Positions 44,611 to 63,828 of a stretch of DNA of 64,000 nucleotides are shown here, piece by piece; the first letter of the stretch is position 1; each line of letters opens with the position of its first letter. This DNA is from Comamonadaceae bacterium (GTDB taxonomy: Bacteria; Pseudomonadota; Gammaproteobacteria; Burkholderiales; Burkholderiaceae_C), in assembly GCA_027484105.1 (NCBI GenBank), contig JAIXUG010000004.1, positions 186,001 to 250,000 of the forward strand, in the 5' to 3' direction. The position numbers were made by a program, and so were the translations under genes. The notes beneath the pieces are model-generated. The model saw only the letters and a list, made by a program, of their open reading frames with translations, was not told the DNA's origin and searched no databases.

Positions 44611-44691
44611 GGCACTCTCTGGGGAGGGTTGAAAAATCGGTGTGGTGCAGCGTGGACATCCACCCAAGGCTGGCATCCATTCGGCGTGGTC

Positions 44692-45525: not shown

Positions 45526-45553
45526 GAAAAGTGATCCTTGAAGTGTCTGGAAA

Positions 45554-46096: not shown

Positions 46097-46137
46097 GGGG
46101 GCTTTCAAAATGGAATGGTCAGTGCTGATTTTTCGGC

Positions 46138-46607: not shown

Positions 46608-47135
46608 ATGCCATCCCCATTGCACGACAAGCCACCTTCAGCCGCAGGACGAATCAAGTTTTTGCGGGCTGGCCCCCATGCCCCCAAACCAGCAGTCACC
46701 CCAGGTGCTTTGGAGCGAAGGGCATGCGGCCAAGCGCAAGGCGGTGCAGCTGCCGTTGAGTTCGCGTTGATCTTGCCGATGCTCTTGATCTTGCTGCTGG
46801 GGGCTATTGAAGGCAGCTTGGCGATGTACGACAAAGCCGTCATCACCAACGCCAGCCGTGAAGGCGCACGCGCGGGCATCGTGGCGCGCACCACCCCACT
46901 GAGCGAGGGCGATATCCGCCAAGTCGTGCAGGCTTATACGCAAAACGCGGTGGTTGATTTCGGACAACCCAAAACACTGCCCGTGGTGGCCATCAGCCAA
47001 GGCAGTTTGGGCGCCAACGCGACCCTGATCGTTTCGGTCAGCTACACCTTTCAGGGTTTGGCTCTGGGACGTCTTTTGGGCACCCTGGGGCAGCCCTGGG
47101 TCATGAACGCCCGCACCGTGATGGTGTATGAATGA
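46608..47135 (+). CDS. tadE: TadE-family pseudopilin
   Basis: A 175-residue protein starting at the ATG at 46608 behind a CAGGAG site. A long basic lead of about 44 residues is followed by the prepilin-type motif QGGAAAVEFALILPMLLILLLGAIEGSLAMYDKAVITNASREGARAG, diagnostic of TadE. The rest is a beta-rich periplasmic domain. It would be cut by CpaA and help to assemble the pilus. It is the first gene of the plus-strand arm and overlaps tadG by four bases (ATGA). Confidence 0.9.
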   Translation: MPSPLHDKPPSAAGRIKFLRAGPHAPKPAVTPGALERRACGQAQGGAAAVEFALILPMLLILLLGAIEGSLAMYDKAVITNASREGARAGIVARTTPLSEGDIRQVVQAYTQNAVVDFGQPKTLPVVAISQGSLGANATLIVSVSYTFQGLALGRLLGTLGQPWVMNARTVMVYE

Positions 47136-48288: not shown

Positions 48289-48699
48289 TCAGGCCCTCAG
48301 GTCGATGACTTGGCTGGGTGTTTGAGCAGTGCTTGACTGCGCTGTGATCAGGCGTTGGGGCTGGTCGTGAAATTGCACGGCGAAAGTGCTCTGGCCTTGC
48401 AGCAAGGCCAGGGCGCGGTGCACGGCTTGCAGGGGGTTGCCTGGGTGAATGGCGTCGATCAGGTGTGCGATCAATTCACCGTCGCTGTGGGTCTGGAATG
48501 GGTAACCACGGTCTTGCAATTGCGCGCGCAAGGCGTGGTGGTTGTCCACATGGCCATGGTGCAGCACAGCGACGCGGGCTGGCGATGCTGGATGGCTGTG
48601 GGGGCCGTGGCTGAACTGGGTGCGCGCCGGATCCAGGGTCATGAAGTGGGCCGATTGGATCGGGCTGCGCTGAAATGTCATGGCGATCGGCTGGGTCAT
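48289..48699 (-). CDS. Short GlmS-like class II glutaminase-domain fragment
   Basis: A 136-residue protein with a strong AAGGAG ribosome site. Residues about 28-115 align with the middle of the GlmS glutaminase domain: HSHPAS...VAVLHHGHVDNHHALRAQLQDRGYPFQTHSDGELIAHLIDAIHPGNPLQAVHRALALLQGQSTFAVQF parallels HPH...VVHNGIIENHEALR..L..RGY.F.S.TDTEVIAHL.........AV..A...L.G...... of GlmS. It lacks the amino-terminal catalytic Cys, which GlmS has at residue 1 after Met removal, and the two sugar isomerase domains. It may be a remnant or a domesticated regulatory subunit. It ends the exopolysaccharide operon. Confidence 0.6.
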   Translation of the reverse strand: MTQPIAMTFQRSPIQSAHFMTLDPARTQFSHGPHSHPASPARVAVLHHGHVDNHHALRAQLQDRGYPFQTHSDGELIAHLIDAIHPGNPLQAVHRALALLQGQSTFAVQFHDQPQRLITAQSSTAQTPSQVIDLRA

Positions 48700-48747
48700 G
48701 TTCAGGCTCCTTGAAGGTTGGCAGCAGAGGTTGTGGGATAGCGCTGT

Positions 48748-49014
48748 TCAGTGACCTGGTCGCTGTGGTTTGACGCGGCTGAGTGCGTTTTGCAAAAAGA
48801 CGTGGGTCAGGCGGTTTTGCTGTTCGGCGTCTTGGTGCAGGCCCTGAGCATGCAGCCGTGTGGCCAGGGTGTTGGACTGGCGGGCTTTGCGCAGGTGTTC
48901 ACCGATGATGCGAAAGTCGCTGTCACGGCGTGCCGGCGGGGGCAGCACGCCTGCGTGCATTGCGACCGAGGAGGGTATGGCAGCCGTGTTGGGTGTGGGG
49001 CGGGTGGTTGTCAT
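48748..49014 (-). CDS. Small hypothetical protein after the polysaccharide deacetylase
   Basis: An 88-residue open frame in the operon direction, starting nine bases after the deacetylase stop codon, with no clear ribosome site. It is basic, hydrophilic and has no signal peptide or membrane segment (RIIGEHLRKARQSNTLATRLHAQGLHQDAEQQNRLTHVFLQNALSRVK looks helical). It is not recognised. It is likely a small cytoplasmic protein of this locus, or a chance frame. Confidence 0.4.
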   Translation of the reverse strand: MTTTRPTPNTAAIPSSVAMHAGVLPPPARRDSDFRIIGEHLRKARQSNTLATRLHAQGLHQDAEQQNRLTHVFLQNALSRVKPQRPGH

Positions 49015-49023
49015 GGTGGGGTG

Positions 49024-50952
49024 TCACGGTGGGTTATCTTGGGCTTGCGGTGTCCAGCTCACGGTCAGGTGAGGCGTGGGGCCTGCCGTGACCAACCAGT
49101 GCTGTTCATGCCGTTCAATGCGGCCTTGGCCGTGGGTGATGTGCAGGTCTTTGGCGCTGTGCGCAGGAATGATCCAGGTCAGGGTGTCGAGTGAGTCCGG
49201 GCTTTGCGCCTGCAGCTCGTATTGGCCCGCGCGTTGTTGCAATTGCCAACGGACGCCAGCTCGCCGGTTCATGAAGTCGGACAAATCGGCCATGCGGTAC
49301 CAGCGGAAAACATTCTTTTGTTGCAACAGCTGGGCTTGTTCGCGCAGGGCCCGCATGGTTTTGGGGTACTGGGGGGTGGTGGCGGGGTGAAAGTAAAACA
49401 GCCGCACCAGGCGGTGGTCGCTGACGTGCGCGAACAAGTCCACGATGAAGTCGCGGATCTCCTGCTCCTGCAGGCCAAATTCCTCCAATTCGTCCACTGT
49501 GGCAATGCGCTTGAAGTTGGATATCGGAAAGTTCCACAGGCCTGTGTACGGCGATGGCTTGCCGTGAATGTAAGAGCGTGTGGCGCCCAGACCGGTGTCG
49601 GCGGTGGTGTAGAAGGCCTTGAAGCCGCGCGCATGCAGCCACGCGGTGGCCCAGCTGGGCTGGTTGCCCATGGGGGCCGAATAGACTTTGGGCTCTTGCC
49701 CTATGGCCTGGCTGATGCTGGCGTGGTTGCGTTCCAGATAGGGTTCAAAGCGGGCCTGGTTGTGCTCGTTGGCCTGGTAGCCAAAAACATTGTGGGTCCA
49801 TCCCCCATGGTTGCCCACCTCGTGTCCACGTTCATGTTGGCGCTTGAGGAAGTCACGCATCCACCGGTTCTCGCTCACGTTCAAGCCCAAACGGTCGCCA
49901 TCGTGATGGGCATGTGGCCCGGCAGTGACGTGAATGGAGAAGGGGCCATCCTCCAACCAGCCCGACCGCTCCAGATCGGTCAGGGGCTTTTGGGCCGAGT
50001 TGGAATCCACATGCAGGTTCAGCACCATGCCGCCGATGCCATCGGGCGTGGCGGCCAGCCTCGGCAGTTGGGCCATATCGGTCCCGAAGTGGCTCAATGC
50101 CCGGTGCAGCAAATAGCTGTCCGTGCGGGTTTTCAAGTACCCCAGGGGCAGGTTGGCAAACATCACCTGCCCTTGCCCGTGCCGATGCACCGACAAAATC
50201 GTGTCGCCCTGCCGGGAGCGAATCCAGGTGCGCAGCTTGTTTTTGTCCTTGCCCAGAGCGACAGGACCGCTGGCGCCGGGCGCCATACCCACAGCCTTGT
50301 CCAAGGGGGCGGTGCGGTAATGGTCGTACACCAAGTCTTCGTAGGCATAGGTAGTCAATTCGCCCCAGGCTTCGGTTGGGTCCTGCGGAAAATCCAATTT
50401 GCCCGGCTGGATGCCCAGTTCTCGCTCGCCGTCTTTGCTGACCTGTACCGTGCTGCTGTTCAGGGTGTGGTCACGCAAACCTTCGTACAGGGCGTAGCGC
50501 ACCCCGACCAGTGCCGACAGGCGTGACTCCTGGGCGGCGTAATGGCTGTGGTGCAACTTGAACAAGGCCGCATCAAAGCCCACCAGCAGTTGTCCTCCCG
50601 CTTCGACGTATTGGTAAAGCGTGTTGACCAACAGGTCGGATGCATGGGGGTGAACAGTGTCGGGCAGGATCACTCCCGCAATCGGCTGTTGATCAGCCCG
50701 GTGTCGGATGAATTCATCGTCGGTCATCGTCTGCAGAGGCAAACCCTCTTCGTGCGCCGCATCGATCCAGGCCTGGGCAGCGGGATGGGTCTTGGCTTGT
50801 GCGCTGGGCAGCAAAAGCACCAGGGTCATGGGCTCGGTGCTTTGGGTTTTGTGGGTGGGCCAGCTCCAAGCGGTCGCTGTGGCGATGGCCCCCAGGGCCA
50901 ACAGCCACAACAAGGCGCGCCATGGGCTGAGTTTGAAGAGCGCATGCGTCAT
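49024..50952 (-). CDS. Membrane-anchored two-domain protein with polysaccharide deacetylase-like domain
   Basis: A 642-residue protein with one N-terminal membrane segment (WRALLWLLALGAIATATAW). The first ~270 residues form a glutamine-amidotransferase-like domain (LVLLLPSAQAKTHPAAQAWIDAA, AGVILPDTVHPHASDLLVNTLYQYVEAGGQLLVGFDAALF). A NodB-like part follows: LNLHVDSNS supplies the first Asp and GHEVGNHGGWTH the metal histidines (one residue longer than the usual motif), with a later FYFHPAT segment. It may deacetylate an exported polysaccharide, like PelA or PgaB. A paralogue is encoded at 57049-59589. Start ATG overlaps the preceding stop codon. Confidence 0.7.
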   Translation of the reverse strand: MTHALFKLSPWRALLWLLALGAIATATAWSWPTHKTQSTEPMTLVLLLPSAQAKTHPAAQAWIDAAHEEGLPLQTMTDDEFIRHRADQQPIAGVILPDTVHPHASDLLVNTLYQYVEAGGQLLVGFDAALFKLHHSHYAAQESRLSALVGVRYALYEGLRDHTLNSSTVQVSKDGERELGIQPGKLDFPQDPTEAWGELTTYAYEDLVYDHYRTAPLDKAVGMAPGASGPVALGKDKNKLRTWIRSRQGDTILSVHRHGQGQVMFANLPLGYLKTRTDSYLLHRALSHFGTDMAQLPRLAATPDGIGGMVLNLHVDSNSAQKPLTDLERSGWLEDGPFSIHVTAGPHAHHDGDRLGLNVSENRWMRDFLKRQHERGHEVGNHGGWTHNVFGYQANEHNQARFEPYLERNHASISQAIGQEPKVYSAPMGNQPSWATAWLHARGFKAFYTTADTGLGATRSYIHGKPSPYTGLWNFPISNFKRIATVDELEEFGLQEQEIRDFIVDLFAHVSDHRLVRLFYFHPATTPQYPKTMRALREQAQLLQQKNVFRWYRMADLSDFMNRRAGVRWQLQQRAGQYELQAQSPDSLDTLTWIIPAHSAKDLHITHGQGRIERHEQHWLVTAGPTPHLTVSWTPQAQDNPP

Positions 50953-51746
50953 GGTGTGAGGTCTCCATCTTGGACAAGCCGTGCTTGTGCGTTATCAGGG
51001 CTCATGCGCAGTGCAGGCGTTGTGCTGGCCAGCCAGGCATAGAGTGCGATGAAGATCCATAAGTCCAGCAAAGCGCCAAAGCACAAAAAAAGCAAAGGCA
51101 TGAACAAAATCGACCCCTGCTCGAGGCACCACACATGCAGCAAGGTTTTGTGCGGCAGCATCAACGCAAAGTAAGCCATGAAGGCCAGTGGCGCCCCCAG
51201 TTTTTGCCAAACTGGTACAGGCAAAATGCCCCAGCCCAAGGCCAGCATGGGGCCGATCGCCAGCATCAAGCCATAGCCCATGCCCATGAGCGCGTCGGCA
51301 TGCGAGCCAATGCTGTAAGGGAAGCTGGAGGGCGTCAGCCAGAAAAAGAGACAGGCACACCATTGGATCAAACACATGGCCCGCAAGCTGATTTTCAAGG
51401 GGTAAAAGCGGTCGCTGAGACGATTGCCCAGCCACCAGATGCCGGCGGTCACTGCGGCGGTCACGACCAGCAGTTGTGCAGAGGGCGCAAAAGACCCATC
51501 GTCCAGTGGCGTCCACAGCAGCGTCTGCCCCTCTGGCGACAACTGGGTCACCAGGGACAGTTGCAGGGCATCGCCCCAAAAGCTCAGCGTCATTTGCCAA
51601 AAGGCCATCAAGGGCCCTTTCAGCATCAACAGCAAGCCCATGGGAATGGCGGACCACACCAGGCACTGGACGAGCCAGTTGGAAACGGCTGTTCTTGTGC
51701 CCGTCTTCGATGGCCATGACGGTGAAATGGCGTTGGCAGGGTTCAT
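50949..51746 (-). CDS. Polytopic membrane protein of the exopolysaccharide operon
   Basis: A 265-residue protein with about six or seven hydrophobic segments. No known domain. Segments include WLVQCLVWSAIPMGLLLMLKGPLMAFWQMTLSF and MGMGYGLMLAIGPMLALGWGILPVP, then PLLFLCFGALLDLWIFIALYAWL. A short soluble tail follows. Its start and stop codons overlap both neighbours by four bases, so it is certainly translated with the YaiO-like barrel and the deacetylase. It may be part of an inner-membrane export or modification complex; acyl transfer cannot be excluded. Confidence 0.75.
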   Translation of the reverse strand: MNPANAISPSWPSKTGTRTAVSNWLVQCLVWSAIPMGLLLMLKGPLMAFWQMTLSFWGDALQLSLVTQLSPEGQTLLWTPLDDGSFAPSAQLLVVTAAVTAGIWWLGNRLSDRFYPLKISLRAMCLIQWCACLFFWLTPSSFPYSIGSHADALMGMGYGLMLAIGPMLALGWGILPVPVWQKLGAPLAFMAYFALMLPHKTLLHVWCLEQGSILFMPLLFLCFGALLDLWIFIALYAWLASTTPALRMSPDNAQARLVQDGDLTP

Positions 51747-52564
51747 GGCCAGTCCTTGAACACGCCGATGTAAAGACCGTCGCGCTTGTAAAAGGGATTT
51801 TTGTAGTTTTCAATGCGGCCCTTGAGGCCCCAGTCGGGCCCCAGCCAGTGCTGCGCCGACAGCGTGGTTTGGTGGCTCGAAAACCGGGACACCAGGGTGT
51901 CCGAACCCAAGGTTTGGTAGCCTTCTTCTCCCCAGCCATGGCGGCCCGTCAGGCGGGTTTGGCCCGCTTGGCCCCAGGTGGCTGCCACGAAGTACTGCTG
52001 CGTGTCGATGCGCCCCGGGTTGCTCCGGTTGATGCGGGCTTCGGCCTGCAGCACCCAAGTGGCGGGCAGGTAGGCGGTGACACCCAGGCTGAGCTTGTCG
52101 TCCGTGTAGTCCAGAGGCGATCGGTAGTGGCCCAGCCCCAGACTGGTGATCAGGCTCAAATCGCTGAGCCATTTACGGTGGATGAAACCGTCAACCCGGT
52201 AGCGTGGCAAATACGCTGCGCCATCTCCAGCGCCGACCGAAAGGGACCCGAACCAATGCGGGTCGAAGACCAAGGTGTTGCCCAGGCCCAGGTAGTTGCC
52301 TTTTTCATTGAAACGTTCCATGCTGGCCAGCTCGCCCGACCACAGCTGAGGGCCAACGCGGTACAGGCCTCGCACACCCACTTCGCGCCATGAGCCGAAG
52401 TTGCCGCTCAGACTGTCTTGGGTGGTGTACATCTCCGCTTGTTGCAAACCTGGTGGTCGCGTGCTTTGCGCGCCCACCAGGGTGCTGGCCGAGCCGATCC
52501 AGCATGCGAGCCAGAATCTGGCGCGCCATGCACGGTTTGAACGCCTTGTCAGTGGTGTGGTCAT
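51743..52564 (-). CDS. YaiO-like outer-membrane beta-barrel protein
   Basis: A 273-residue protein with a signal peptide (start MTTPLTRRSNRAWRARFWLACW, cleavage near VGAQ). The mature part consists of alternating beta-strands such as ELASMERFNEKGNYLGLGNTLVF and LSLGVTAYLPATWVLQAEARINRSN, ending in KRDGLYIGVFKDWP, with an aromatic penultimate position suited to a BAM signal. It resembles YaiO of E. coli, an outer-membrane protein encoded near a glycosyltransferase. It might be the exit pore of the polymer. It starts ten bases after the epimerase gene. Confidence 0.75.
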   Translation of the reverse strand: MTTPLTRRSNRAWRARFWLACWIGSASTLVGAQSTRPPGLQQAEMYTTQDSLSGNFGSWREVGVRGLYRVGPQLWSGELASMERFNEKGNYLGLGNTLVFDPHWFGSLSVGAGDGAAYLPRYRVDGFIHRKWLSDLSLITSLGLGHYRSPLDYTDDKLSLGVTAYLPATWVLQAEARINRSNPGRIDTQQYFVAATWGQAGQTRLTGRHGWGEEGYQTLGSDTLVSRFSSHQTTLSAQHWLGPDWGLKGRIENYKNPFYKRDGLYIGVFKDWP

Positions 52565-52574
52565 GGCTTCGCTT

Positions 52575-53780
52575 TCAGTGGGGGCGCATGCCAATAGACC
52601 GCGCAGTCCATGGATGGGCCGCATGCCAGTGGGTGACGCCCTCCGGATGGCCTGTCAGCACATCGACAATCCGCATGGCCGAGTGGCCATCTCCAAAAGG
52701 GCAAGGGGTGGCCTGCATGACCCGGTACAGGTCGCCATCACGCAGCAATGCACTGGCCTGCTCGACAATGGCATGCGGGTCGGTGCCCACCAACAGAGCG
52801 CCGCCCGCATTCACCAACTCTTGTCTTTCGGTGCTTTGCCGGGTGATGAGCACGGGCTTTTTCAGGGCAGAGGCTTCTTCTTGTATGCCGCCCGAGTCGG
52901 TCAAGCAAAAATGGCAGTCGGCCAGCAGGCCAATCAAGGCCGGGTAGTCCAAGGGTTCGGTCAGGCAAATGCGTGCCCTGCCATCGGGAGTCAGACCTTC
53001 CAGGCCCAAGGCAATGTCGTGGCGCACACTGGGGTTGGGGTGTTGAGGCCAGACCACCACCAAGGCCGGGTTGACCTGCAGCAAGGCCCCCACAGCGGCA
53101 GCGATGTGTTGGATCGGGCGCCCCCAGTTCTCACGCCGGTGCGCAGTCACCAGCATCAGGGGTGCACCGGGGTGGGAGGCCATCATTTGCTGTACAGCTT
53201 CGGGGTAGTCGTTGCGCTGGCATGCTGCAGACCTGAGCTGCTGGACCCACAGCGCGGCATCGATCACGGTGTTGCCCACCTCATAAATGTCCCGTCGCTG
53301 CACCCCTTCGCGCAACAGGTTGTCGCTGGCAATTGGGGTGGGTGGAAAGTGCCAGTGGGCCAAACGGCCAATCATTTCCCGGTGTTTTTCTTCTGGAAAA
53401 GGATCGTGCTGTCCGGTGCGTAAACCGGCCTCGATGTGCGCCACCGGGATGTCCCTGAAATAAGCGGCCATCGCGCCGCCCAGGGCGCTGGAGGTATCGC
53501 CCTGGACCAGCACCACATCGGGTTTGCACTGGTCAAGCACCTGGTCAATGCCTTGCAGCAGTTCGGCCGTGAGCTGGGACAAACCCGAGCGCTCGCGCAA
53601 CAGCTGAATCTGGTGGTCCGGGCCCATGTCGAAAAAACGGTAAAGGCTTTGCGCCATCTCCTCATGCTGGCCGGTGTGCAGCACCTGCACGGTTTCACCT
53701 CGTTCTTTGAGCAGGCGATGGACCGGGGCCATCTTGATGATTTCGGGGCGTGTTCCGGTGCAAACCAGATAGGTGCTCAT
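52575..53780 (-). CDS. wecB: UDP-N-acetylglucosamine 2-epimerase (non-hydrolysing)
   Basis: A 401-residue enzyme; start ATG at 53780, overlapping the preceding stop by ATGA. It has MSTYLVCTGTRPEIIKMAPV, HTGQHEEMAQ, VLVQGDTSSALGGAMAAYF, HIEAGLRTGQHDPFPEEKHREMIGRL, LVTAHRRENWG and LTDSGGIQEEASALKKPVLITRQSTERQE, all WecB/MnaA signatures. It converts UDP-GlcNAc to UDP-ManNAc. Its presence inside the operon suggests that the polymer contains N-acetylmannosamine or a sugar derived from it. Confidence 0.94.
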   Translation of the reverse strand: MSTYLVCTGTRPEIIKMAPVHRLLKERGETVQVLHTGQHEEMAQSLYRFFDMGPDHQIQLLRERSGLSQLTAELLQGIDQVLDQCKPDVVLVQGDTSSALGGAMAAYFRDIPVAHIEAGLRTGQHDPFPEEKHREMIGRLAHWHFPPTPIASDNLLREGVQRRDIYEVGNTVIDAALWVQQLRSAACQRNDYPEAVQQMMASHPGAPLMLVTAHRRENWGRPIQHIAAAVGALLQVNPALVVVWPQHPNPSVRHDIALGLEGLTPDGRARICLTEPLDYPALIGLLADCHFCLTDSGGIQEEASALKKPVLITRQSTERQELVNAGGALLVGTDPHAIVEQASALLRDGDLYRVMQATPCPFGDGHSAMRIVDVLTGHPEGVTHWHAAHPWTARSIGMRPH

Positions 53781-54751
53781 GTGCAGTTCTCCTGTGATGG
53801 GGTGTTCAGTGTTGGGGTCATGGGTGGGCGAGGCAGGATCTGGGCGATCACTTCGTCGGTGACCGTCCACAGTGCCGAATGGCGATGGGGCAGGGCCCGC
53901 TGTTGCCAGCAACGAACGCTGGGCCAATCACCTTGGCGCCAAGCCACCAGCGCGACCAGTCCCCACGGAAACTCATGACCACTTTGGGCCAGCCACCGGG
54001 CACGGTGCTGTTTCATCCAGCGCGTGTAATGCGCTTGGGCATTTCCTGAAGCCAGGGGAAAGTCCCACAGCAAGGGGTAGATCTGGGCGGTGGCATCGGG
54101 GTAGAAGTGCGTGTCGGGGTGAGGGTGCGAGGCTTGAGTGCTGACGCGGTAAAGCTGCAGCGCAGGGTCCCAGAAGGTGCGCTGGATGGCCCGTGCCAAA
54201 CTCGGGCTGGGCCATGCCGACCACACCTCGAGGTTGTCCATGAACAGGCTGTGCCGGATGTGCGGTGACACGTGGTACAGGCCCGTCGCCGGGTTGTTCA
54301 GTTGTCGCAGGTCTTGTGCAGCGCGCGCTTGCAAGGTGTCGATGGGCAATTGATCGCGCACGCTGGAGGGCAATCGGTGCAAGAACTGCAACCACAAGGC
54401 CAGGGACGAATCGTCGGCGTCAGGCGGTTTGCACCAGCGCCAGGTGGTGAGCGGTTTGACCCCTGACTGGCAATAGCGGCCGATGTGACCGGCTTCCTGG
54501 TAGCGCTGTGCGAGCCAACGTGCCCAAGCCAAAGCGTAGGGGCTGATGTCCAGCCCATGCGACTGCGCCACGCCCAGGGCCTGCAAGGCAAAGTAAGGGT
54601 CAACGGTGTCCCCTTGGTATTGCACCGTGATGGCTCCGGTGGCATCGGTGTAGCCCCGCAAGTCGAGCACTTGGGGCTGGGCCTGGGCCAGCAGACTGCT
54701 CATGCCGCAGCAGAGCATGCCAAGCCAACGTGCAACTGCAGACCGGCTCAT
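53777..54751 (-). CDS. Secreted protein with probable alpha/alpha-toroid (glycoside hydrolase-like) fold
   Basis: A 324-residue precursor with a signal peptide (ending near AQA, residue 25). The mature protein is rich in aromatic residues and helices: DPYFALQALGVAQSHGLDISPYALAWARWLAQRYQE, DADDSSLALWLQFLHRLP and FYPDATAQIYPLLWDFPLASG. The last resembles the substrate cleft helices of (alpha/alpha)6 hydrolases. No catalytic motif can be named. Glycosidases of this kind often trim the polymer during export. ATGA overlaps occur at both ends. Confidence 0.6.
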   Translation of the reverse strand: MSRSAVARWLGMLCCGMSSLLAQAQPQVLDLRGYTDATGAITVQYQGDTVDPYFALQALGVAQSHGLDISPYALAWARWLAQRYQEAGHIGRYCQSGVKPLTTWRWCKPPDADDSSLALWLQFLHRLPSSVRDQLPIDTLQARAAQDLRQLNNPATGLYHVSPHIRHSLFMDNLEVWSAWPSPSLARAIQRTFWDPALQLYRVSTQASHPHPDTHFYPDATAQIYPLLWDFPLASGNAQAHYTRWMKQHRARWLAQSGHEFPWGLVALVAWRQGDWPSVRCWQQRALPHRHSALWTVTDEVIAQILPRPPMTPTLNTPSQENCT

Positions 54752-55383
54752 GGGCGTGCCCCATCTGAAGGCGTCAAGACTTTGCCGTAAACATGCGCCG
54801 AGTCGCTGACCGTCAGCGTCTCGGCGCTCAAGCTGGTGGGGCTTTCAGGGTTGCCAATCTGAGCGCCTTCGGCCAGTGTGACGGCGTGTTGAACCACCAC
54901 TGGGCCGAACGCCATGGCCGCTTTTTCAAGGCTCAGGGAAGAGGCAAACACCGCCCCTGAAAGCGCACTGCCAGGGGCCATTTGTACATGCCCGTACACC
55001 TTCACATCCCCCTCCACCACGCTGTTGGCACCACAGTACAAGTTGCCCATGACCACCAGCGCGCCGGGCCAACAGGTGCCCGCAGGGATTTGGCAATCGC
55101 CCGCTGTGCGTGAGCCCAGCGCACCCCATGGCTGTGCATGGGGCAAGCGGGCCAAAACCCTTTTGATTTTTTGAGGGGGCAACGTGACCCTGGGGCTGTC
55201 CTGCGCTGGTGCCATGTCTTGTGGCGCCATCTGGGGCAAAAGCTGCTTGGGCTCTGACCAGGTCAGGGCGGCCGCATCACGGGGTGTGCGCCATTCGCGC
55301 CACGCGGGGTAAAAAGGCCAGAGCAGCAAGTTCAGGGTGATGAACCCGAAGAGCAGGCCGAAGAGATCTTGCACAACGTTCAT
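54748..55383 (-). CDS. Membrane-anchored bactofilin-like polymer-forming protein
   Basis: A 211-residue protein, start at 55383 with an ATGA overlap of the synthase stop codon. The first 30 residues form a hydrophobic segment (DLFGLLFGFITLNLLLWPFYPAW), then a linker rich in Pro and Gln, then from about residue 95 a right-handed beta-helix pattern: ALVVMGNLYCGANSVVEGDVKVYGHVQMAPGSALSGAVFASSLSLEKA and similar turns up to HVYGKVLTP. This periodic pattern is that of bactofilins or DUF583 proteins. It may organise the synthase in the membrane. Confidence 0.68.
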   Translation of the reverse strand: MNVVQDLFGLLFGFITLNLLLWPFYPAWREWRTPRDAAALTWSEPKQLLPQMAPQDMAPAQDSPRVTLPPQKIKRVLARLPHAQPWGALGSRTAGDCQIPAGTCWPGALVVMGNLYCGANSVVEGDVKVYGHVQMAPGSALSGAVFASSLSLEKAAMAFGPVVVQHAVTLAEGAQIGNPESPTSLSAETLTVSDSAHVYGKVLTPSDGARP

Positions 55384-56816
55384 GTGCCTGCCTCCTGGCG
55401 GTAGCGCACGGTCTTGTGCCACACCAGCTCTTTACCCCGAAGCCGGTCCCATAACGCACTGCCCAGCGCGGCACTGATGGTGGGCAAACTGGCCACAAAA
55501 TTGAACATCTGCAGGGGCAGCAAACGGATGCGGTGACGGTGCCCATCGATCAGGACGGCAAACACCATCTGCAGGAAGGCTGAAAAGCCACCGATCGCTG
55601 CATAGGCCATGAGCAAGGCACTGGGTATGAAAAGCGTCAAGGTTTCCGCGCCGTTCATGAAGTACAGGGCCAGCGCCATGATCCAAGCCAGCAACAACAA
55701 GGGCTGCAACAAAAAAATGCCCAGCAGCATCAGGCCATCGAGTCGCTCGCGCCAAGTCAGCAAGGGCGAGCGCAAAACCCGCGCCGTTTGCTCCCACATG
55801 ACCTGGTCATGGCCTTTGGCCCAACGGTGGATCTGACGCAACCGCACCAGCCAGTCCTCGGGCACCTCTTCGTAGCAGGTGGCATGGTTGTTGTAGACGG
55901 TCTTCCAGCCCGCCAGCAGCAGGCGAAAGGTGATGTCGGTGTCTTCGGCCAACACATCGTCACGCCAGCCGCCGGCCGCTTGCACGGCTGACAAGCGCAC
56001 CCCACCCACGGTGCCGCCAAACTGCGGCACCCCCTTCAAATTCATCCGCGCTTGTTGATCGACCTGGTAGCCTGCTGAGCGCTCCATGTCCAACAATCGG
56101 GTGAGCAAATTACTCGACACATTGCGTGGCACCACGCGGCCCATCACCGCACCCACCTCAGGGTCCAGAAAGGGGGCGACCAGTTGCTTGAGCAAACCAG
56201 GTCCGGGGGTGTAGTCCGCATCAAAGATGAGGGCAATGTCCCCTCGTGCATGCTGCATGGCGTCCTTCAGAGCTGCCGCTTTGCCGGGTTTGCCCCGGGT
56301 CCTGTGAAAAGCCTTCAGGCGCTCCGGATGCAAGCTGACAAAGTCATTGACGATGTCCGTTGTTCGGTCGCTCGATCGGTCGTTGACCACCACCACCTTG
56401 AGCAGCCTCGCCGGGTAGTCACTGGCCAGCAAGGCCCGGATGCTGCCGGCGATCACTTTTTCTTCGTTGTGGGCCGCAATGAAAACCGTGACAGCAGGCC
56501 ATTGGGCGGGCTTGATGAAGGCATAGGGATAGCGCTGGACGCCGGTCATCCGGTGCAGGGCGTACAAGATCTGTCTGAGCCCGTAAGTCAGCATGACCCC
56601 CACGATCAAGCTCAGCACCATGGCCAAGACCAGGCTTGTGGGCCTTTGTGTCCATGTCTCCACAAAGGTCTGGGCGCCTGCGGGGGCACTGATCGCCGCC
56701 ACCATCCAGGCGCTCAACCAGCGCCACGTCTTCGCCTGGCGCGCAGGTGTTGACTGCAGAAACTGTTGGCGCAGCAGTTCAGGGGGTATCCGTTCATCGC
56801 GAGGGCGAGCGGGCAT
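55380..56816 (-). CDS. Processive family 2 glycosyltransferase, polysaccharide synthase
   Basis: A 478-residue membrane synthase and first gene of the exopolysaccharide operon, with an AAGGA site before the ATG at 56816. It has an early membrane pair, then the GT-A domain: VTVFIAAHNEEKVIAGSI, VVVNDRSSDRT, LIFDADYTPGPG (DxD), LAEDTDITFR (TED-like) and RQIHRWAKG (QxxRW, mark of processive synthases). Four or so membrane helices follow. It resembles PgaC, NodC and hyaluronan synthases; the sugar donor is likely UDP-HexNAc, given the epimerase gene. Confidence 0.9.
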   Translation of the reverse strand: MPARPRDERIPPELLRQQFLQSTPARQAKTWRWLSAWMVAAISAPAGAQTFVETWTQRPTSLVLAMVLSLIVGVMLTYGLRQILYALHRMTGVQRYPYAFIKPAQWPAVTVFIAAHNEEKVIAGSIRALLASDYPARLLKVVVVNDRSSDRTTDIVNDFVSLHPERLKAFHRTRGKPGKAAALKDAMQHARGDIALIFDADYTPGPGLLKQLVAPFLDPEVGAVMGRVVPRNVSSNLLTRLLDMERSAGYQVDQQARMNLKGVPQFGGTVGGVRLSAVQAAGGWRDDVLAEDTDITFRLLLAGWKTVYNNHATCYEEVPEDWLVRLRQIHRWAKGHDQVMWEQTARVLRSPLLTWRERLDGLMLLGIFLLQPLLLLAWIMALALYFMNGAETLTLFIPSALLMAYAAIGGFSAFLQMVFAVLIDGHRHRIRLLPLQMFNFVASLPTISAALGSALWDRLRGKELVWHKTVRYRQEAGT

Positions 56817-57048
56817 GGCGTCCTTTCTGGTTTCAAAGAAAGTTCATCCTCGCCCGCCCCGGTCTTTCACTCAGCGGTCCAACGCACACCGGCCCATTGC
56901 GCGAAGCGCAGTCGGTGGTGTAGAGCACTTGTGGTGCAGCCGGTGATGCAGCCAACGGACAAACGTGCCCGTCATTTCTAAATTCAATGTTCGTTCTCAG
57001 ACCTTGTTTGAGCGTCTGTTTTTTCATTGAAATGAAAGGGAGTGAGCT
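56817..57048. promoter_or_regulatory. Divergent promoter region of the exopolysaccharide operon and its deacetylase paralogue
   Basis: A 232-base gap between outward-facing genes. The half next to 57048 is AT-rich. Both starts have good ribosome sites: AAGGA before the synthase, GGGAG before the lipoprotein. The region is the natural target for the nearby Crp-type regulator but I cannot identify a clear TGTGA-type site. Confidence 0.35.
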
Positions 57049-59589
57049 ATGCAACACATCACGCAAGCACAATTTTCAAGGGGTACAGGCCGATGGTGGT
57101 TGTTCGCCGCCTGCAGCTTGGCCGTGGGGCTCAGCGCCTGTGGCGGAGGCGGGGGTGACCCTGCGTCGGCCCTGTTGACACCACCGTCTTCAGAGTCGGT
57201 GGACACGCTCGAGGCAGGCGTTTTGCCCGAGCCTTGGGTGGTGGACCCGAAGGCCCCCTTGCTTATGCCCACAGTGGCACTGCTGGCCTCCGTGCCCACG
57301 CAAGCGCCTGCACCCCAAGAAGCACCGGCAGCCAACACCTGGCTGAGCAATGCCGTGAACATGGCGGGCAGTTGGGCTCAGACCTTGGGCTTGTCCCCAG
57401 CGCCATCCCCATGGACATCCCCTGAGCTGATGCCCAGGTTACTCAGTGTGAGCAGCATGGCCCTGCCAGTGGCCGACCCTGGGGTATTGATGTTGTTGCT
57501 GCCCGATGCACAAGACCTGTCGTATCCCGGCGTATCGGCCTGGCTGGATGCCGCATCGGAGCTGGGGGTGCGTTTGCAGCCTATCACCGATTCACAGTTC
57601 ATGGCCTTGGGCGATCAGGCGCGCCATTTTGCGGGCTTGGTACTGCCCGATGGCTTGCATGTGCAGGCCACCGATGCGCTGCTGGAGGCGGTCAAGCGCT
57701 ATACCGAGCAAGGCGGTCGCAGCATGCTGGTGTTTGATTTTGGGGCATTGACCACTTTGAGCGATGGCACGCCGGTGTACCCGATTCCAAAATCCCGCTT
57801 GAGCGGCATGGCCGGTGTGGACTATGTGATGTATGAAGCTTTACGCGACAGGACCACCGGTCTTGGGCCCGTCACGGCCACACGCAGCACCCTGCGCCAG
57901 CTGCTGGTGCCACCCGGAAAGTCCATGCCCTTTGGCGGGCTGGCCGCCAGCACCGATAGCACCCCTTTGTTGAGTGCGGCGCAGATCACTCAGGATTCGG
58001 CCCTTTACCTGCCTGTGGATGTGCGCGATGCGGGAGGGGTGCGTGGCTTTGATCCACAGCAATACAGCCAGATGTCTTATGCCAAAAGCAGCAGCCGGGC
58101 AGAGCGAAAAACGCGAGGTCGGCAAGTGCGGATTGATTTGGGGCGTGCCTTCAAAGCTCAAACCGTCAAGGGCAGTTCCCAGCCAGCAGCGGGCCCATCG
58201 CTGCGTGAAATCACGACATCAGACACCGCCACGCGCGCGCTGGTGCTGGGGGCTGGCGAAGACCCTGTCGAGGCCTACAGCGGTTATTTGTTGGGCCCCT
58301 TGATTTACCCGACCTATGTAACCCAAGGGGAATTTGGCAGTTTGCCAGGCCAGAAGGTGTTGGCCACTTCACCCCAGTTTGGTTTGGTGGCGGGGGTGAA
58401 CCCCGTGGGTGCGGGGCAGGTTTTGTTTGTGAATTTGCCGCTGACTTATTTGAAAGGCCGCACGGATGCCTTGATGATGCATGGCTACCTGAATTACTTT
58501 GTGCGCGAGGTGCTGGAATTGCCACACTTGTCGGCCATGCCCAACGGCGTTGGCGGGATGACGTTTGACTGGCATCTCGACGCCAAGGCGGCGCAGGCCC
58601 CGACCGAGGCGCTGATGAAGCTCAATGTGTTCAACGATCCGCAGGCCTTGTTTTCGATCGAAATGACCGCAGGGCCAGATGCCATTGTGGCCGGTGATCG
58701 CTTGGGCTGGAACTTGGCGCGCAACAAGAAAGCGCAGCAATTCCTCAAGACATTCCAAACGGCTGGTCACAGTGTGGGTTCGCACGGCGGTTGGAACCAT
58801 GATTTTTATGGCATCAATGTCAGTGAGACCAATGAGCTGAACAGTACCAAGGGAGCCTGCGTGAATGCCCAGCTCAAGCAGGACAACTTCATGCAGTGTC
58901 TGGTGCTCAACCGCCGTGATGTCGATGCGGCCACAGGCGCACGCTCACGCAGCTATTCATCGCCCGAGGGCAACAATCCCTTGTGGTCGATGAATTGGCA
59001 TGAGCAACAAGGTGTGGTGTCGGCTTACTTTGCAGGTCACACCGGACTGGGAGCCACACGCCAGTACCGCGAAGGGCGTCTGCTGACCCCCAAGCTGTGG
59101 GTTTTTCCGGTCACACCAGCGGGCTTGTACGCCACCTACGAGGAGTTCCAGGACTACAACGTGCCGCAAAGCGAGGTGATCGCCTGGAAGCGCGCCATGA
59201 TCGACTTTGGGGTGACACACAACACCAGTCGCATGATCTATGCCCATCCACCAGGGGCTTATCTGTGGCGCAATGTGCTGCAAGACATGCTCAACTACGC
59301 CAAGAGCCGAGGTCCACAGTTTGCCTGGTACACCATGGAGCGGCTGGCCGACTTCAATGCCCGGCGTTTGCAGGTCAACTGGCAGCAAAGCCTGGATGCG
59401 GGCACAGGGCAAACCGTCTTCACGGCGACCCACCCGCTAAGCCTGCAAGAAATGGTGTGGCGGCTGCCCAAGTCACGCTATGCCAATCCGCCTGTCATCG
59501 AGTCCGGCAGCGCCAGTGTGGACGGCACCGATACCAGGTTCTGGTTGGTCAAGGCCCAGGGCGGCACCCGCTTGGTGTTCCGCCTGTGA
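57049..59589 (+). CDS. Lipoprotein paralogue of the polysaccharide deacetylase-like protein
   Basis: An 846-residue lipoprotein (lipobox LSACGGGGG, lipid cysteine near 31) with a Pro/Ala-rich linker of about 110 residues. From residue ~143 it follows the same two-domain plan as the protein at 49024-50952: VLMLLLPDAQDLSYPGVSAWLDAA, AGLVLPDGLHVQATDALLEAVKRYTEQGG, VGAGQVLFVNLPLTYLKGRTDALM, MTFDWHLDAKAAQ and GHSVGSHGGWNHDFYG. Sequence identity is low but positional agreement is high. It has an insertion around the DFYG-NDFMQCL segment with a cysteine. Probably acts on the same or a related polymer at the outer membrane. Confidence 0.75.
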   Translation: MQHITQAQFSRGTGRWWLFAACSLAVGLSACGGGGGDPASALLTPPSSESVDTLEAGVLPEPWVVDPKAPLLMPTVALLASVPTQAPAPQEAPAANTWLSNAVNMAGSWAQTLGLSPAPSPWTSPELMPRLLSVSSMALPVADPGVLMLLLPDAQDLSYPGVSAWLDAASELGVRLQPITDSQFMALGDQARHFAGLVLPDGLHVQATDALLEAVKRYTEQGGRSMLVFDFGALTTLSDGTPVYPIPKSRLSGMAGVDYVMYEALRDRTTGLGPVTATRSTLRQLLVPPGKSMPFGGLAASTDSTPLLSAAQITQDSALYLPVDVRDAGGVRGFDPQQYSQMSYAKSSSRAERKTRGRQVRIDLGRAFKAQTVKGSSQPAAGPSLREITTSDTATRALVLGAGEDPVEAYSGYLLGPLIYPTYVTQGEFGSLPGQKVLATSPQFGLVAGVNPVGAGQVLFVNLPLTYLKGRTDALMMHGYLNYFVREVLELPHLSAMPNGVGGMTFDWHLDAKAAQAPTEALMKLNVFNDPQALFSIEMTAGPDAIVAGDRLGWNLARNKKAQQFLKTFQTAGHSVGSHGGWNHDFYGINVSETNELNSTKGACVNAQLKQDNFMQCLVLNRRDVDAATGARSRSYSSPEGNNPLWSMNWHEQQGVVSAYFAGHTGLGATRQYREGRLLTPKLWVFPVTPAGLYATYEEFQDYNVPQSEVIAWKRAMIDFGVTHNTSRMIYAHPPGAYLWRNVLQDMLNYAKSRGPQFAWYTMERLADFNARRLQVNWQQSLDAGTGQTVFTATHPLSLQEMVWRLPKSRYANPPVIESGSASVDGTDTRFWLVKAQGGTRLVFRL

Positions 59590-59723
59590 GTCTTGTGTGT
59601 GTAGGCCTCACGGTCTATGCAAACAGATCTTTCGATCAATCGACGCCGCTGCGCCAAAGCACGAGCATCAGACCATGGCACTTCCTGCAATGGTTGCAGC
59701 GGCCGCGAACATTGGAGTCAGAC

Positions 59724-61127
59724 ATGTGGAACACCAACGCCATCAACCCCAGCGTCCTTCATCCCGCCAGCTTGATCAGCGGGCCAGAGTTGCAGGCGCT
59801 TTTGCACCAGCCTTTCGAGACGGATCACAAGCAGCGCCAGCCTTTTGGCTTGATGCCGCCCAAAAGTCAGCCGGTGTCGCCATGGCATGCAGGCGAGAAC
59901 TTGATCTTGGCCAGCCTCCCGCCGTTTGAGCAGACGGCCTTGGCACCCCATCTGGAGCGCGTGACGTTGACTTCGGGCCAGGTCATTGTTCAGCCGGGCC
60001 AGGCCTTGCAACACGTTTACTTCCCGACCCACTGCAGCCTCTCCTGGGTTTCTCACACGGCCGACGGGGAATCGGCCGAGTTGGCCCTGGTGGGACGAGA
60101 TGGCCTGATCGGCGTACCCTGGGTCTTGGGCGGGATGACCATGCAGCACACGGTGCAGGTGCAGTGCGGGGGCCAGGCCCTGCGCATGAGCGCGGACGAG
60201 TTTGTTCGTCAACTGCGCAGACCAGGACGCTTGCATCAACTGGCACTGCTGTATGTGCAATGGCAAATGACCCAGATGGCACAAAGCATTGTGTGCAGCC
60301 GCCACCATGCCGTGTCAGAGCGTTTGGGGCACTGGTTGCTGAGCAATGCCCATGGGGCCAATACGCGCGAGTTGCGTGTCACGCACGAAACCATTTCACA
60401 GATGTTGGGTGTGCGCCGAGAATCGGTCACACAAGCGGCAGGGCGCTTTCAGGCCGCAGGATGGATCGAGAACCACCGGGGCAGAATCACATTGAAAGAC
60501 CCCGATGGTTTGAGCACCATGGCTTGTGAATGCCATGCGCGCAGCCAAGCGGAGTCGCAGCGTTACTTGCAACAGTTGGCACAACAGGGGCGGCAGCATG
60601 ACGGGCATGCCCCCACTTTGGCTTTGCCAGAACCTGTGGATACGGCCGTGGTGCTGACGCCCTACGGCATGCCGCAAGAGGAGCAGGAATCCCAGGCATC
60701 TGACTTGCAAAAGTACGTGGATGCCTACGACTTTGCGCCGGTCGGTTTTGTCACGCTAGATGCGCATGGCCGTGTCTTGCAAACCAATCTGGCGGGCGCG
60801 ATCCTTTTGGACATCCAGCGCTCGCAATGCCAGCACCATCTTTTTTCGGAATTTCTGGAGCCGTCATCGCAAGCGTCTTTTGCACAATTTCACCAAGAGG
60901 TGCTGGGCGGGCAATGCCGCCGTTACTGCCTGGTGGTGTTGTCGGCCACAGCGCACCGTAAAGCCATGTGCGTGCGAATCGATGCCACAGCCGACGAGTG
61001 GGGTGTGGAAAACCGCATGGTGTTGATCGATGTGAGCGATCAAGCCACGCTCCAAGATGGTTTGTCAGCCTCTTGGGCCTATCCGTCCACGGCTGCTGCT
61101 GCCGCGCCTTTGGGGTATCGCCTGTGA
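59724..61127 (+). CDS. Crp/Fnr-family regulator with C-terminal PAS domain
   Basis: A 467-residue protein, start ATG at 59724 after a GGAG site. A cyclic-nucleotide-binding-like domain spans about residues 60-190 (LTSGQVIVQPGQALQHVYFPTHCSLSWVSHTADG, ELALVGRDGLIGVPWVLGG), followed by a Crp HTH (LRVTHETISQMLGVRRESVTQAAGRFQAAGWIENHRG, about 220-260) and, unusually, a C-terminal PAS-like domain (KYVDAYDFAPVGFVTLDAHGRVLQTNLAGAILLDI). The cAMP-pocket arginine-serine pair is not recognisable. Encoded 134 bases behind the deacetylase lipoprotein; likely regulator of the surrounding polysaccharide genes. Confidence 0.85.
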   Translation: MWNTNAINPSVLHPASLISGPELQALLHQPFETDHKQRQPFGLMPPKSQPVSPWHAGENLILASLPPFEQTALAPHLERVTLTSGQVIVQPGQALQHVYFPTHCSLSWVSHTADGESAELALVGRDGLIGVPWVLGGMTMQHTVQVQCGGQALRMSADEFVRQLRRPGRLHQLALLYVQWQMTQMAQSIVCSRHHAVSERLGHWLLSNAHGANTRELRVTHETISQMLGVRRESVTQAAGRFQAAGWIENHRGRITLKDPDGLSTMACECHARSQAESQRYLQQLAQQGRQHDGHAPTLALPEPVDTAVVLTPYGMPQEEQESQASDLQKYVDAYDFAPVGFVTLDAHGRVLQTNLAGAILLDIQRSQCQHHLFSEFLEPSSQASFAQFHQEVLGGQCRRYCLVVLSATAHRKAMCVRIDATADEWGVENRMVLIDVSDQATLQDGLSASWAYPSTAAAAAPLGYRL

Positions 61128-61149
61128 TGCATCAGGGGTGCAGGGTGTC

Positions 61150-63828
61150 GTGACCCACTGGCACGCCCTGAGCACCCAGCAGGTGCTGCACGAGCAGGGC
61201 GTAGACCTCCGCTCTGGCTTGGATTCGCAGGCCGTGGCACAGCGCTTGAGGCAGCATGGCCTCAACCACCTGACCGTCATGCCAGGCGAGCCTGCGTGGC
61301 GTCGTTTTTTTCGGCAATTTCACAACCCCCTGATATATGTGTTGCTGGCGGCGGGCGTCACCAGCCTGGCACTGCAGTCCCACCTGGATGCGGCGGTCAT
61401 TTTGGCGGTGGTGCTGATCAATGCCCTGATGGGTTTTGTGCAGGAAGGGCAAGCCGAAAAAGCCATGCACGGGGTGCGCAAGCTGTTGGCCAGCCGGGCC
61501 CTGGTTTTGCGTCAGGGCGAGCGACAGACCGTGATGGCCGATCAACTGGTACCAGGGGACTTGGTGTTGATCGAGTCGGGTGACAAGGTGCCCGCCGATT
61601 TGCGACTGGTTCGCTGCAAACAATTGCGCGTTTTTGAATCTTCGCTCACGGGTGAGTCGGTGCCGGTGGACAAAAGCACCGAGCCCGTTGCCCACAACGC
61701 CGGCATCGGCGACCGCCACAACATGGCCTATGCCGGAACCTTGGTGGCGATGGGGCAGGGCACCGGCGTGGTGGTTGCCACAGGCGTGCACACCGAGATC
61801 GGACACATTGGCCGCCTGGTGGGGGGGCTGCAGACGCTCCACACACCGCTGACGCGCCGACTGGACCAGTTTGCACGGCAGATCACGTTCTTCATTCTGG
61901 GCGTGGGTGCGCTGAGTTTTGCCTATGGCCATTGGGTGGCGCAGATGCCTGTGCAAGTGATTTTCATGGCCGTGGTGAGTCTGGCGGTGGCGGCCATCCC
62001 CGAAGGCTTGCCCGCCATCGTCACGGTGGTGCTGGCCATTGGCACGCGCAACATGGCCCGTCAAAGCGCCATCGTGCGGCGCTTGCCAGCGGTGGAGGCG
62101 CTGGGTTCGGTGACGGTGATTTGTGCGGACAAGACGGGCACGCTGACGCAAAACAGGATGACCGCTGTGCACCTGGTCTTGGCCGATCGCGAGCTGCAGG
62201 TTCAAAGCGCAGGTGATCGGCCCTTGGCCGACTTTGTGCATGCGGGCGAGCCGATCGATCCGGCGCAAGCACCAGACCTATTGGCGCTGGCGCGTTGCGC
62301 CATGTTGTGTAACGACGCGCGCATGGTGCAAAACGCCATCGGCCAGTGGCAGCCGGTGGGCGACCCCACTGAAGGCGCGTTGATGGCCTTGGCGCACACA
62401 GCCGGTGTGCAGCGCGAAGCGCGGGTTCAGCACGCCCTGCGCCTGGATGAAATTCCGTTTGATGCGCAGCACCGTTTCATGGCGGTGCTGGTGCAAGCCC
62501 CGGATGGGCAGCGCGCCTTGTTGCTCAAAGGTGCACCCGAGGTGGTGCTGGATCTGTGCGCCACGCAGGCTACCGGGAAACCGCTGGACGCAGCCCATTG
62601 GCAAGCGGCGGTGGCGCGCACGGCGGCCTTGGGCCAGCGCGTGCTGGCGCTGGCCCAAGCCCCCTGGCCAGCCGACGTGGCCAGCGTGCAATGGCGCGAC
62701 ATCACCCGCCGTTTTGAGCTCTTGGGTCTGGTGGGCATCATCGACCCGCCCCGGCCCGAGGCGGTGGCCGCGGTGGCCGACTGCCAAAGCGCGGGCATTC
62801 AAATCAAGATGATCACCGGTGACCACGCCATCACCGCCGCAGCCATTGGCGCGCAGCTGGGTTTGCGCGCCCAGGGCGTGATCACGGGCGAGGCCGTGGA
62901 GGCCATGGACGATGCCGCCTTGCAGCACCACGTCTTGCAAACCGATGTGTTTGCACGTGCCAGCCCCGCGCTGAAGCTGCGCCTGATCCATGCGCTGCAA
63001 GCGCAAGGCCATGTGGTGGCCATGACCGGGGATGGCGTGAACGATGCCCCTGCCTTGAAGGCAGCCAACATCGGAGTGGCCATGGGGCACAAAGGGACGG
63101 AAGCGGCCCGCGAAGCCGCAGACCTGGTGCTCACGGATGACAACTTCGCCACCATCGCCCACGCTGTGCGAGAGGGCCGGGTGGTGTTTGACAACATCAA
63201 AAAGTCGCTGATGTTCATTTTGTCCACCGATGTTGGCGAAGCGGGCGTGATTTTGCTGGCGATTTTTGCGGGTCTGGCCTTGCCGGTCACGTCGGTACAA
63301 ATTTTGTGGGTCAACCTCGTCACGGCGGTGACTTTGTCGCTGTCGCTGGCCTTTGAGCCCGGTGAGCCCGGGGTGATGCAACGCGGCCCGCGTTCTCCCC
63401 AAGAGCCCCTGCTGACGCGGCCGCTGGTGCTGCACATGCTTTTTGTCAGTGTGTTGATCGTGGCCGTGACTTTTGCTGCTTTTGAATGGGCGCTGGCCCG
63501 AGGCGACTCTTTGGCGCTGGCCCGCACCACGGCCGTGAATGCGCTGGTGTTCAGCCAGCTGGTGTGCCTGTTTCACGCACGTCACTTCACCCGTTCGGCA
63601 TGCCACCGTGAAACCTTCACGGGCAACCCGGTGGCGCTGTGGGTCAGCGCCATCATGCTGGTGCTGCAATTGCTGTTCACGTATGCGCCGCCGATGCAGC
63701 TGCTCTTCCAGACCGAGGGGCTGGACGCCAGCAGCTGGGTGTTCATTGGCTTGCTTTCCGGGGGCTTGTTTGTGGCGGTGGAGCTGGAAAAGGCCGTTTG
63801 GCGTTGGCGCGGCGTGGTGCGCCTGTGA
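61150..63828 (+). CDS. Cation-transporting P-type ATPase, Ca2+-ATPase (P2) type
   Basis: About 892 residues from the GTG at 61150; another GTG at 61138 is possible and the start is the least certain part. The actuator motif LTGESVPVDKS, the membrane motif VAAIPEGLPAIVTVV (PEGL, typical of P2A pumps), the phosphorylation site ICADKTGTLTQNRM (D327), the KGAPE nucleotide loop, and TGDGVNDAPALKAA hinge are present, with about ten membrane helices. The end NLVTAVTLSLSLAFEPGEPGVM is common to bacterial Ca2+ or Na+/K+-type pumps. The cation is not proven. Confidence 0.9.
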   Translation: MTHWHALSTQQVLHEQGVDLRSGLDSQAVAQRLRQHGLNHLTVMPGEPAWRRFFRQFHNPLIYVLLAAGVTSLALQSHLDAAVILAVVLINALMGFVQEGQAEKAMHGVRKLLASRALVLRQGERQTVMADQLVPGDLVLIESGDKVPADLRLVRCKQLRVFESSLTGESVPVDKSTEPVAHNAGIGDRHNMAYAGTLVAMGQGTGVVVATGVHTEIGHIGRLVGGLQTLHTPLTRRLDQFARQITFFILGVGALSFAYGHWVAQMPVQVIFMAVVSLAVAAIPEGLPAIVTVVLAIGTRNMARQSAIVRRLPAVEALGSVTVICADKTGTLTQNRMTAVHLVLADRELQVQSAGDRPLADFVHAGEPIDPAQAPDLLALARCAMLCNDARMVQNAIGQWQPVGDPTEGALMALAHTAGVQREARVQHALRLDEIPFDAQHRFMAVLVQAPDGQRALLLKGAPEVVLDLCATQATGKPLDAAHWQAAVARTAALGQRVLALAQAPWPADVASVQWRDITRRFELLGLVGIIDPPRPEAVAAVADCQSAGIQIKMITGDHAITAAAIGAQLGLRAQGVITGEAVEAMDDAALQHHVLQTDVFARASPALKLRLIHALQAQGHVVAMTGDGVNDAPALKAANIGVAMGHKGTEAAREAADLVLTDDNFATIAHAVREGRVVFDNIKKSLMFILSTDVGEAGVILLAIFAGLALPVTSVQILWVNLVTAVTLSLSLAFEPGEPGVMQRGPRSPQEPLLTRPLVLHMLFVSVLIVAVTFAAFEWALARGDSLALARTTAVNALVFSQLVCLFHARHFTRSACHRETFTGNPVALWVSAIMLVLQLLFTYAPPMQLLFQTEGLDASSWVFIGLLSGGLFVAVELEKAVWRWRGVVRL

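Follow-up and report, generated by a model that had tools for sequence, protein, structure and literature searches.

To our knowledge, the synthase-dependent exopolysaccharide systems that are understood are few, namely those for cellulose, poly-N-acetylglucosamine (PNAG), Pel, alginate and Pss. The Pel system uses PelF, a polymerase of glycosyltransferase family 4 (GT4), together with the membrane partners PelDEG, the export porin PelB and a fused hydrolase domain. In Listeria, the exopolysaccharide is described as a beta-1,4-linked polymer of N-acetylmannosamine (ManNAc) with galactose that needs the deacetylase PssB (PMC6307706), and PssZ as an (alpha/alpha)6 hydrolase of glycoside hydrolase family 126 (GH126; PMC7479077). 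Here we analyse a locus at positions 48289-61127 of a 64,000-nucleotide stretch of a Comamonadaceae genome (contig JAIXUG010000004.1), hereafter called the window, whose positions are used for all coordinates. The locus probably encodes a synthase-dependent system for exopolysaccharide secretion whose type has not been described so far. It is of a known kind and not categorically new; judged from its genes, it appears to combine Pel-like modification with a synthase of its own and a dedicated epimerase, in a distribution that seems sporadic but widespread.

The centre of the locus is a row of seven minus-strand genes, A to G, from 56816 to 49024. An open reading frame (ORF) check placed all seven where the first-pass annotation had put them and bore out the overlaps that it described, with ATGA at five junctions (A/B, B/C, C/D, E/F and F/G) and, at D/E, a 10-base gap if E begins at an inner ATG (52564) or otherwise a 50-base overlap. 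Gene A (55380-56816, 478 amino acids) encodes a processive glycosyltransferase of family 2 (GT2), the synthase, with membrane helices at the N- and C-terminus and the motifs DAD (residues 199-201), EDTD (291-294) and QxxRW (QIHRW, 328-332). B (54748-55383; 211 amino acids from the ATG at 55383, the ORF opening at 55422) is a membrane-anchored bactofilin-like beta-helix protein, and C (53777-54751, 324 amino acids) a predicted secreted (alpha/alpha)6-barrel protein. D (52575-53780, 401 amino acids from the ATG at 53780) is a non-hydrolysing 2-epimerase (WecB/MnaA) of uridine diphosphate N-acetylglucosamine (UDP-GlcNAc), which passes the wecB model TIGR00236 with 376.1 bits against a cut-off of 210.15. 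E (51743-52624) is an outer-membrane beta-barrel of the YaiO family (TIGR04390, 154.2 bits against 32), and F (50949-51746, 265 amino acids) a polytopic inner-membrane protein of no known family with conserved W, P, R and H residues. G (49024-50952, 642 amino acids) is a PelA/Agd3-like polysaccharide deacetylase with an N-terminal domain like that of glutamine amidotransferases and an N-terminal anchor or signal helix. Gene I (57049-59589, plus strand, 846 amino acids), divergent from A, encodes a deacetylase paralogous to G and predicted to be a lipoprotein (lipobox LSAC); its match to PF01522 is below the cut-off.

The set resembles several described systems without coinciding with any of them. 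Like Pel, it has a deacetylase that matches PelA, and periplasmic trimming and deacetylation of a hexosamine polymer would be common to both; unlike Pel, its barrel is of the YaiO kind and its (alpha/alpha)6 protein is encoded separately, no Pel family was found among the seven proteins in Pfam and NCBIfam scans, and the sole glycosyltransferase of the operon is the GT2. With the PNAG systems (PgaABCD/IcaADBC) it shares a GT2 synthase, a deacetylase and an outer-membrane barrel, whereas WecB, the bactofilin-like B, C and F set it apart. PgaC_IcaA was the best-scoring NCBIfam model for A, with 131.5 bits against a cut-off of 422.3, which a protein passes in two of 90 genomes of the order; the cut-offs of NodC (86.8 against 550) and CelA (73.1 against 699.1) were not reached either. 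The seven proteins gave no match to the PgaA, PgaB and PgaD families at E<=0.1, and no phmmer match to E. coli PgaB or PgaD was obtained at E<=10. Cellulose systems (BcsABZC) offer a counterpart for C, whose model has the BcsZ fold, but their synthase is far from A and no BcsB family was found among the seven proteins. In E. coli K-12 a putative deacetylase, a GT2, a putative acyltransferase fragment and YaiO lie side by side as yaiS-yaiP-yaiX-yaiO, but YaiP scores only 34 bits against A and branches apart, and no WecB, C or F is annotated there; these genes (L062, 4070-8617), with yaiX split by IS2, look like a reduced, distant analogue.

The phylogeny of the synthase agrees with this separation. 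In a 38-row GT2 tree, 23 synthases picked from the window and the 44 loci discussed below form one clade with support of 100/99, apart from PgaC, NodC, BcsA (the E. coli protein cut to about residues 251-600), YaiP and the GT2s of Listeria and Enterococcus, although the deeper forks are weak and long branches meet. The GT2 therefore does not group tightly with the PNAG, NodC or cellulose synthases tested, and the view of the first-pass annotation, which saw the logic of PNAG and Pel export carried out with different parts, is supported. It had not recognised the gene set as a described system, and no title or abstract describing the set was found in literature searches limited to open-licence papers, a weak absence given that limit.

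The gene set is conserved. A GTDB scan seeded with C returned 25 loci, and the window proteins alone recognised all of A-F in 24 of them; the contig of the other (L019) is cut after D, so that E and F are missing. The order A-B-C-D-E-F is kept in 20 of the 25, so it is not unique to this genome. The five exceptions are L019, consistent up to D, L030, in which E has moved, and three Acidovorax loci (L013-L015) that are rearranged with all six genes present. Named carriers belong to Burkholderiales, or to the Comamonadaceae or Oxalobacteraceae within it, and include Limnohabitans, Acidovorax, Thiomonas, Hydrogenophaga, Curvibacter, Ramlibacter, Sapientia, a Pandoraea metagenome-assembled genome and others; several loci bear no title beyond Proteobacteria, Betaproteobacteria or uncultured bacterium. 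The reverse search, with A at E<=1e-40 in 200 genomes of the family, matched 14 genomes. Thirteen show all six roles, and the contig of the remaining one (G109), only 3.8 kb long, shows A and C; G006 gave one match more (37% identity), which is a different GT2. When the same kind of 200-genome draw was searched with C, seven genomes were found, all within A's 14, and the other seven (L086-L092) hold A, B and D-F along with a deacetylase and only a divergent C-like protein. In this family sample, A's type of GT2 thus has the same gene partners at every place where the contig is long enough to show them.

Over all 44 loci, A, B, D and either C or c2 are present in every one, E and F in 43 (L019 being cut) and a GlmS/GlmM match in eight; the c2 profile mixes the second C-like protein of L012 with the C rows of L051-L057, and C and c2 were counted together. 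The profiles behind the order check and the 44-locus count were built partly from loci that they score, and the scan of 25 loci with the window proteins alone is the cleaner count; L065-L067 and L086-L092 lie outside those profiles, and all six roles were found there anyway. Nor are the 44 independent: L066 hardly differs from L067, L013-L015 resemble one another, and the C- and A-seeded sets overlap. The count leaves aside the duplicates L035-L037 and L053 (of L012, L020, L028 and L019) and short match loci (e.g. L001-L009, L040-L050, L074-L085, L093). The recurrence of the six-gene content is beyond chance. The first-pass annotation had included the deacetylase in a seven-gene set; A-F do recur, but a deacetylase lies within the fetched stretch at only 27 of the 44 loci (27 of the 41 non-enterobacterial ones), and in the three Escherichia loci an acyltransferase, that of E. 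coli belonging to Acyl_transf_3, replaces it. Among the culturable environmental carriers, which include Hydrogenophaga sp. IBVHS2, Limnohabitans radicicola JUR4 has both deacetylases, and Thiomonas delicata DSM 16361 has A-F and, in the stretch, no deacetylase. Thus the core is A-F, and the tailoring enzyme is interchangeable.

The donor sugar is suggested by the epimerase. Non-hydrolysing WecB interconverts UDP-GlcNAc and UDP-ManNAc. D is the sole TIGR00236 match in its genome, which is rated 100% complete, and since WecB is present at all 44 loci, including those of Burkholderiales, Escherichia and plasmids, UDP-ManNAc is most likely the donor. We propose that D would convert UDP-GlcNAc to UDP-ManNAc, which A would polymerise, alone or with UDP-GlcNAc, while threading the chain across the inner membrane with the assistance of F. 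B, held at the inner face of the membrane, may be a scaffold on which the synthase is placed or clustered. C would act on the chain in the periplasm, cutting or trimming it in the way that BcsZ treats cellulose and PssZ the polymer of Listeria, and G would remove N-acetyl groups; the barrel E would be the exit through the outer membrane, and the lipoprotein I could deacetylate the chain further, probably at that membrane.

B has a single N-terminal hydrophobic helix (residues 3-25) and, because basic residues come after it, the beta-helix would face the cytoplasm by the positive-inside rule. Bactofilin is listed at E<=1 for 19 of 19 B homologues (best 1.3e-7), and enterobacterial homologues carry the NCBI name polymer-forming cytoskeletal protein; B may be called bactofilin-like, its membership of the Bactofilin family being unproven. 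C has no Pfam or NCBIfam family; its homologues in a large protein set number 558 (E<=0.001), and a scan of 75 of these gave no Pfam family beyond scattered weak matches; C was not matched in phages. Its AlphaFold2 model (pLDDT 92.5) is an (alpha/alpha)6 barrel as in polymer hydrolases of the BcsZ/PssZ type, with PssZ (6r2m) among the Foldseek neighbours and the GH8/GH126 fold recovered, and C is likely a hydrolase or lyase of the polymer. Membership of GH8 by sequence was considered and is unsupported: hhalign of C against the E. coli BcsZ sequence gave no match, and a PDB profile search gave two chance-level matches only, PssZ not among them. Acidic residues, which may be catalytic, are conserved in the family (36 distinct rows). 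All ten rows of a second, more divergent C-like family retain D111, D113 and E175, and eight retain D114 and D172; acids at positions 51, 299 and 300 are lacking there. Members of this second kind are found near the operon in L011, L012, L013-L015, L017 and L029-L034; that of L012 has, by eye, a twin-arginine-like start. For F, which may help export, Pfam gave scattered chance-level matches only, and no PDB relative appeared at E<=1.

G matches the polysaccharide deacetylase family (33.2 bits against a cut-off of 23.1), and H314, D316, H382 and H387 are invariant in an alignment of 49 rows. Its model has the PelA-type deacetylase architecture by fold comparison, aligning over most of its length to PelA (9cgy, residues 263-847; 443 residues) and to Agd3 (481 residues), which makes the parallel with Pel closer than the first-pass annotation could tell. 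The relation is one of fold alone, as a PDB profile search found none to Agd3 or PelA by sequence.

Several findings weigh against the proposed secretion system. The GT2 tree does not settle the nearest known synthase to A, and constraint trees placing A with PgaC or others are not rejected (approximately unbiased (AU) test, p 0.379, 0.396 and 0.48). The B of the window scores 18.8 bits against Pfam's Bactofilin model (PF04519), below the gathering score of 27.9. For C, which has no sequence family, the Foldseek E-values stay above 0.001 (best 0.0021), its barrel is a common fold found also in epimerases, isomerases and a cyclase, and the C-like proteins of L086-L092 are weakly similar (64-77 bits). 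PelA and Agd3 rank only 38th and 50th among the fold neighbours of G, with a root-mean-square deviation of 8-9 A; the first Foldseek row is human NDST1, and the best VIA rows are single-domain deacetylases of the CE4 kind and an allantoinase. At 14 of the 44 loci, one of them on a cut contig, neither deacetylase nor acyltransferase lies in the fetched stretch. Finally, the entry of ManNAc into the polymer is predicted from genes rather than from polymer chemistry.

A special case of the proposed system would be a Gram-negative counterpart of Listeria Pss making a beta-1,4-ManNAc homopolymer, with G in place of PssB and C in place of PssZ; we consider it rather unlikely in this strict form. A deacetylase, an (alpha/alpha)6 protein and a GT2 are common ground, as a ManNAc polymer would be, and A scores 155 and 164 bits with the GT2s of Listeria and Enterococcus as opposed to 106-113 bits with three PgaC proteins. 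An uncharacterised GT2 from another genome of the order also exceeds PgaC, with 126 bits. In a 26-row tree, obtained from the 38-row tree by leaving out 12 rows with the longest branches, including NodC, BcsA and YaiP, the GT2s of Listeria and Enterococcus group with the locus clade (94/89), but this grouping is not significant and the larger tree lacks it. A sister relation between A and the Listeria GT2 was dropped as proof of ManNAc, since the alternative topologies are not rejected. Moreover, YaiO and the lipoprotein are Gram-negative parts, C has no sequence link to GH126, and the BcsB-like and GGDEF-like genes of the L. innocua locus have no counterpart here. Judging by its gene content, we take that locus to be pss and its GT2 to be PssC, which further limits the comparison.

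A GlcNAc polymer of the PNAG kind, in which WecB would be a passenger feeding another surface glycan, seems distinctly improbable. PgaC_IcaA is the best NCBIfam model for A and a PgaC neighbour is allowed by the GT2 tree (AU p 0.379), but A falls far under the PgaC cut-off, the Pga families that should accompany it are not among the seven proteins, and the presence of WecB at every locus, plasmid and enterobacterial ones included, is unlike a passenger. That the locus serves to glycosylate or anchor the Tad pilus next to it instead of making a free exopolysaccharide is very improbable. In favour of this reading, Tad/Flp genes lie directly downstream and Tad-like genes near L010 and L012; against it, a family listing of 27 loci shows the Tad-like families in those two alone, and one would not expect a protein-glycosylation set to consist of a polytopic processive GT2 and a polymer deacetylase.

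Relative to these alternatives, the proposed secretion system may be specified further, and we tentatively suggest, at somewhat less than even confidence, a dedicated Gram-negative ManNAc exopolysaccharide system in which A uses the UDP-ManNAc of its own epimerase, B positions the synthase, a swappable deacetylase or O-acyltransferase sets the charge, and mobile elements carry the cassette between Burkholderiales and Enterobacteriaceae. Among plasmids, the second-best match of A (48.6% identity) is on an IncI1/B/O conjugative plasmid of Escherichia fergusonii, where genes for a polymer-forming cytoskeletal protein, wecB, YaiO, an F-like protein, an acyltransferase, a C-like protein and a GT2 lie in a row; in a search of 15 proteins only, the profiles of C, F and B match their counterparts there at 5e-51, 5e-16 and 7e-23. 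As the set sits on an enterobacterial conjugative plasmid, the system is apparently mobile. A Cupriavidus plasmid (L065) also carries it, with the C-like protein in two places, the cassette is chromosomal in three of 5426 E. coli genomes, and records under the names Salmonella enterica and Citrobacter freundii hold relatives of the E. coli C. In two E. coli strains (L066 and L067; 1-10000 and 17537-20971) the cassette lies beside fimbrial genes, a regulator of the FaeA/PapI type, TraI/UvrD-type genes, and DsbA-like, PAPS-reductase-like and IbrB-like genes, and is perhaps a mobile island under fimbria-type control. The profile of C was found in four of 398 and the E. coli C in four of 397 genomes of the phylum samples, all in the order of the window or closer, and the order sample gave eight of 399; with so few genomes matched, the system is sporadic.

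The remaining genes of the stretch lie at its flanks. The minus-strand ORF H (48289-48699), which the first-pass annotation had placed within the locus, is a glutaminase piece of GlmS and not machinery: it aligns to GlmS residues 84-172 at 40% identity and so lacks the N-terminus, where the catalytic cysteine sits. With a full glmS elsewhere in the same genome and a complete glmS beside the locus in two others (L025, L051), H is most plausibly what is left of a gene for precursor supply, probably a second glmS. The plus-strand ORF J (59724-61127, a plausible start) is predicted to be a Crp/Fnr-type regulator with a PAS-like tail and is a candidate regulator of the system; Crp-like matches occur at 18 of the 44 loci. 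A P-type cation ATPase ORF (61057-63828) overlaps the end of J on the same strand and has a homologue near the L010 locus. The Tad/Flp genes downstream of the operon (43111-48262) comprise a secretin, RcpC/CpaB and a prepilin peptidase on the minus strand and TadE and Tad_C proteins on the plus strand; those near L010 and L012 were recognised by eye. Within 10 kb of the operon in L016, L020, L022, L025, L032 and L033 there is a very large protein family, whose L022 member (about 2200 amino acids) combines GH94 and glucoamylase domains as cyclic beta-glucan synthase does. Searches of the window with Rfam at gathering scores and for tRNAs gave no match.

The proposed system would add another member to the few synthase-dependent exopolysaccharide systems that are understood, one with a six-gene core, a constant source of UDP-ManNAc, a bactofilin-like part within the operon and two unnamed families, those of C and F. 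It predicts a specific polymer in environmental Burkholderiales, and it would tie bactofilin-like proteins directly to polysaccharide secretion.

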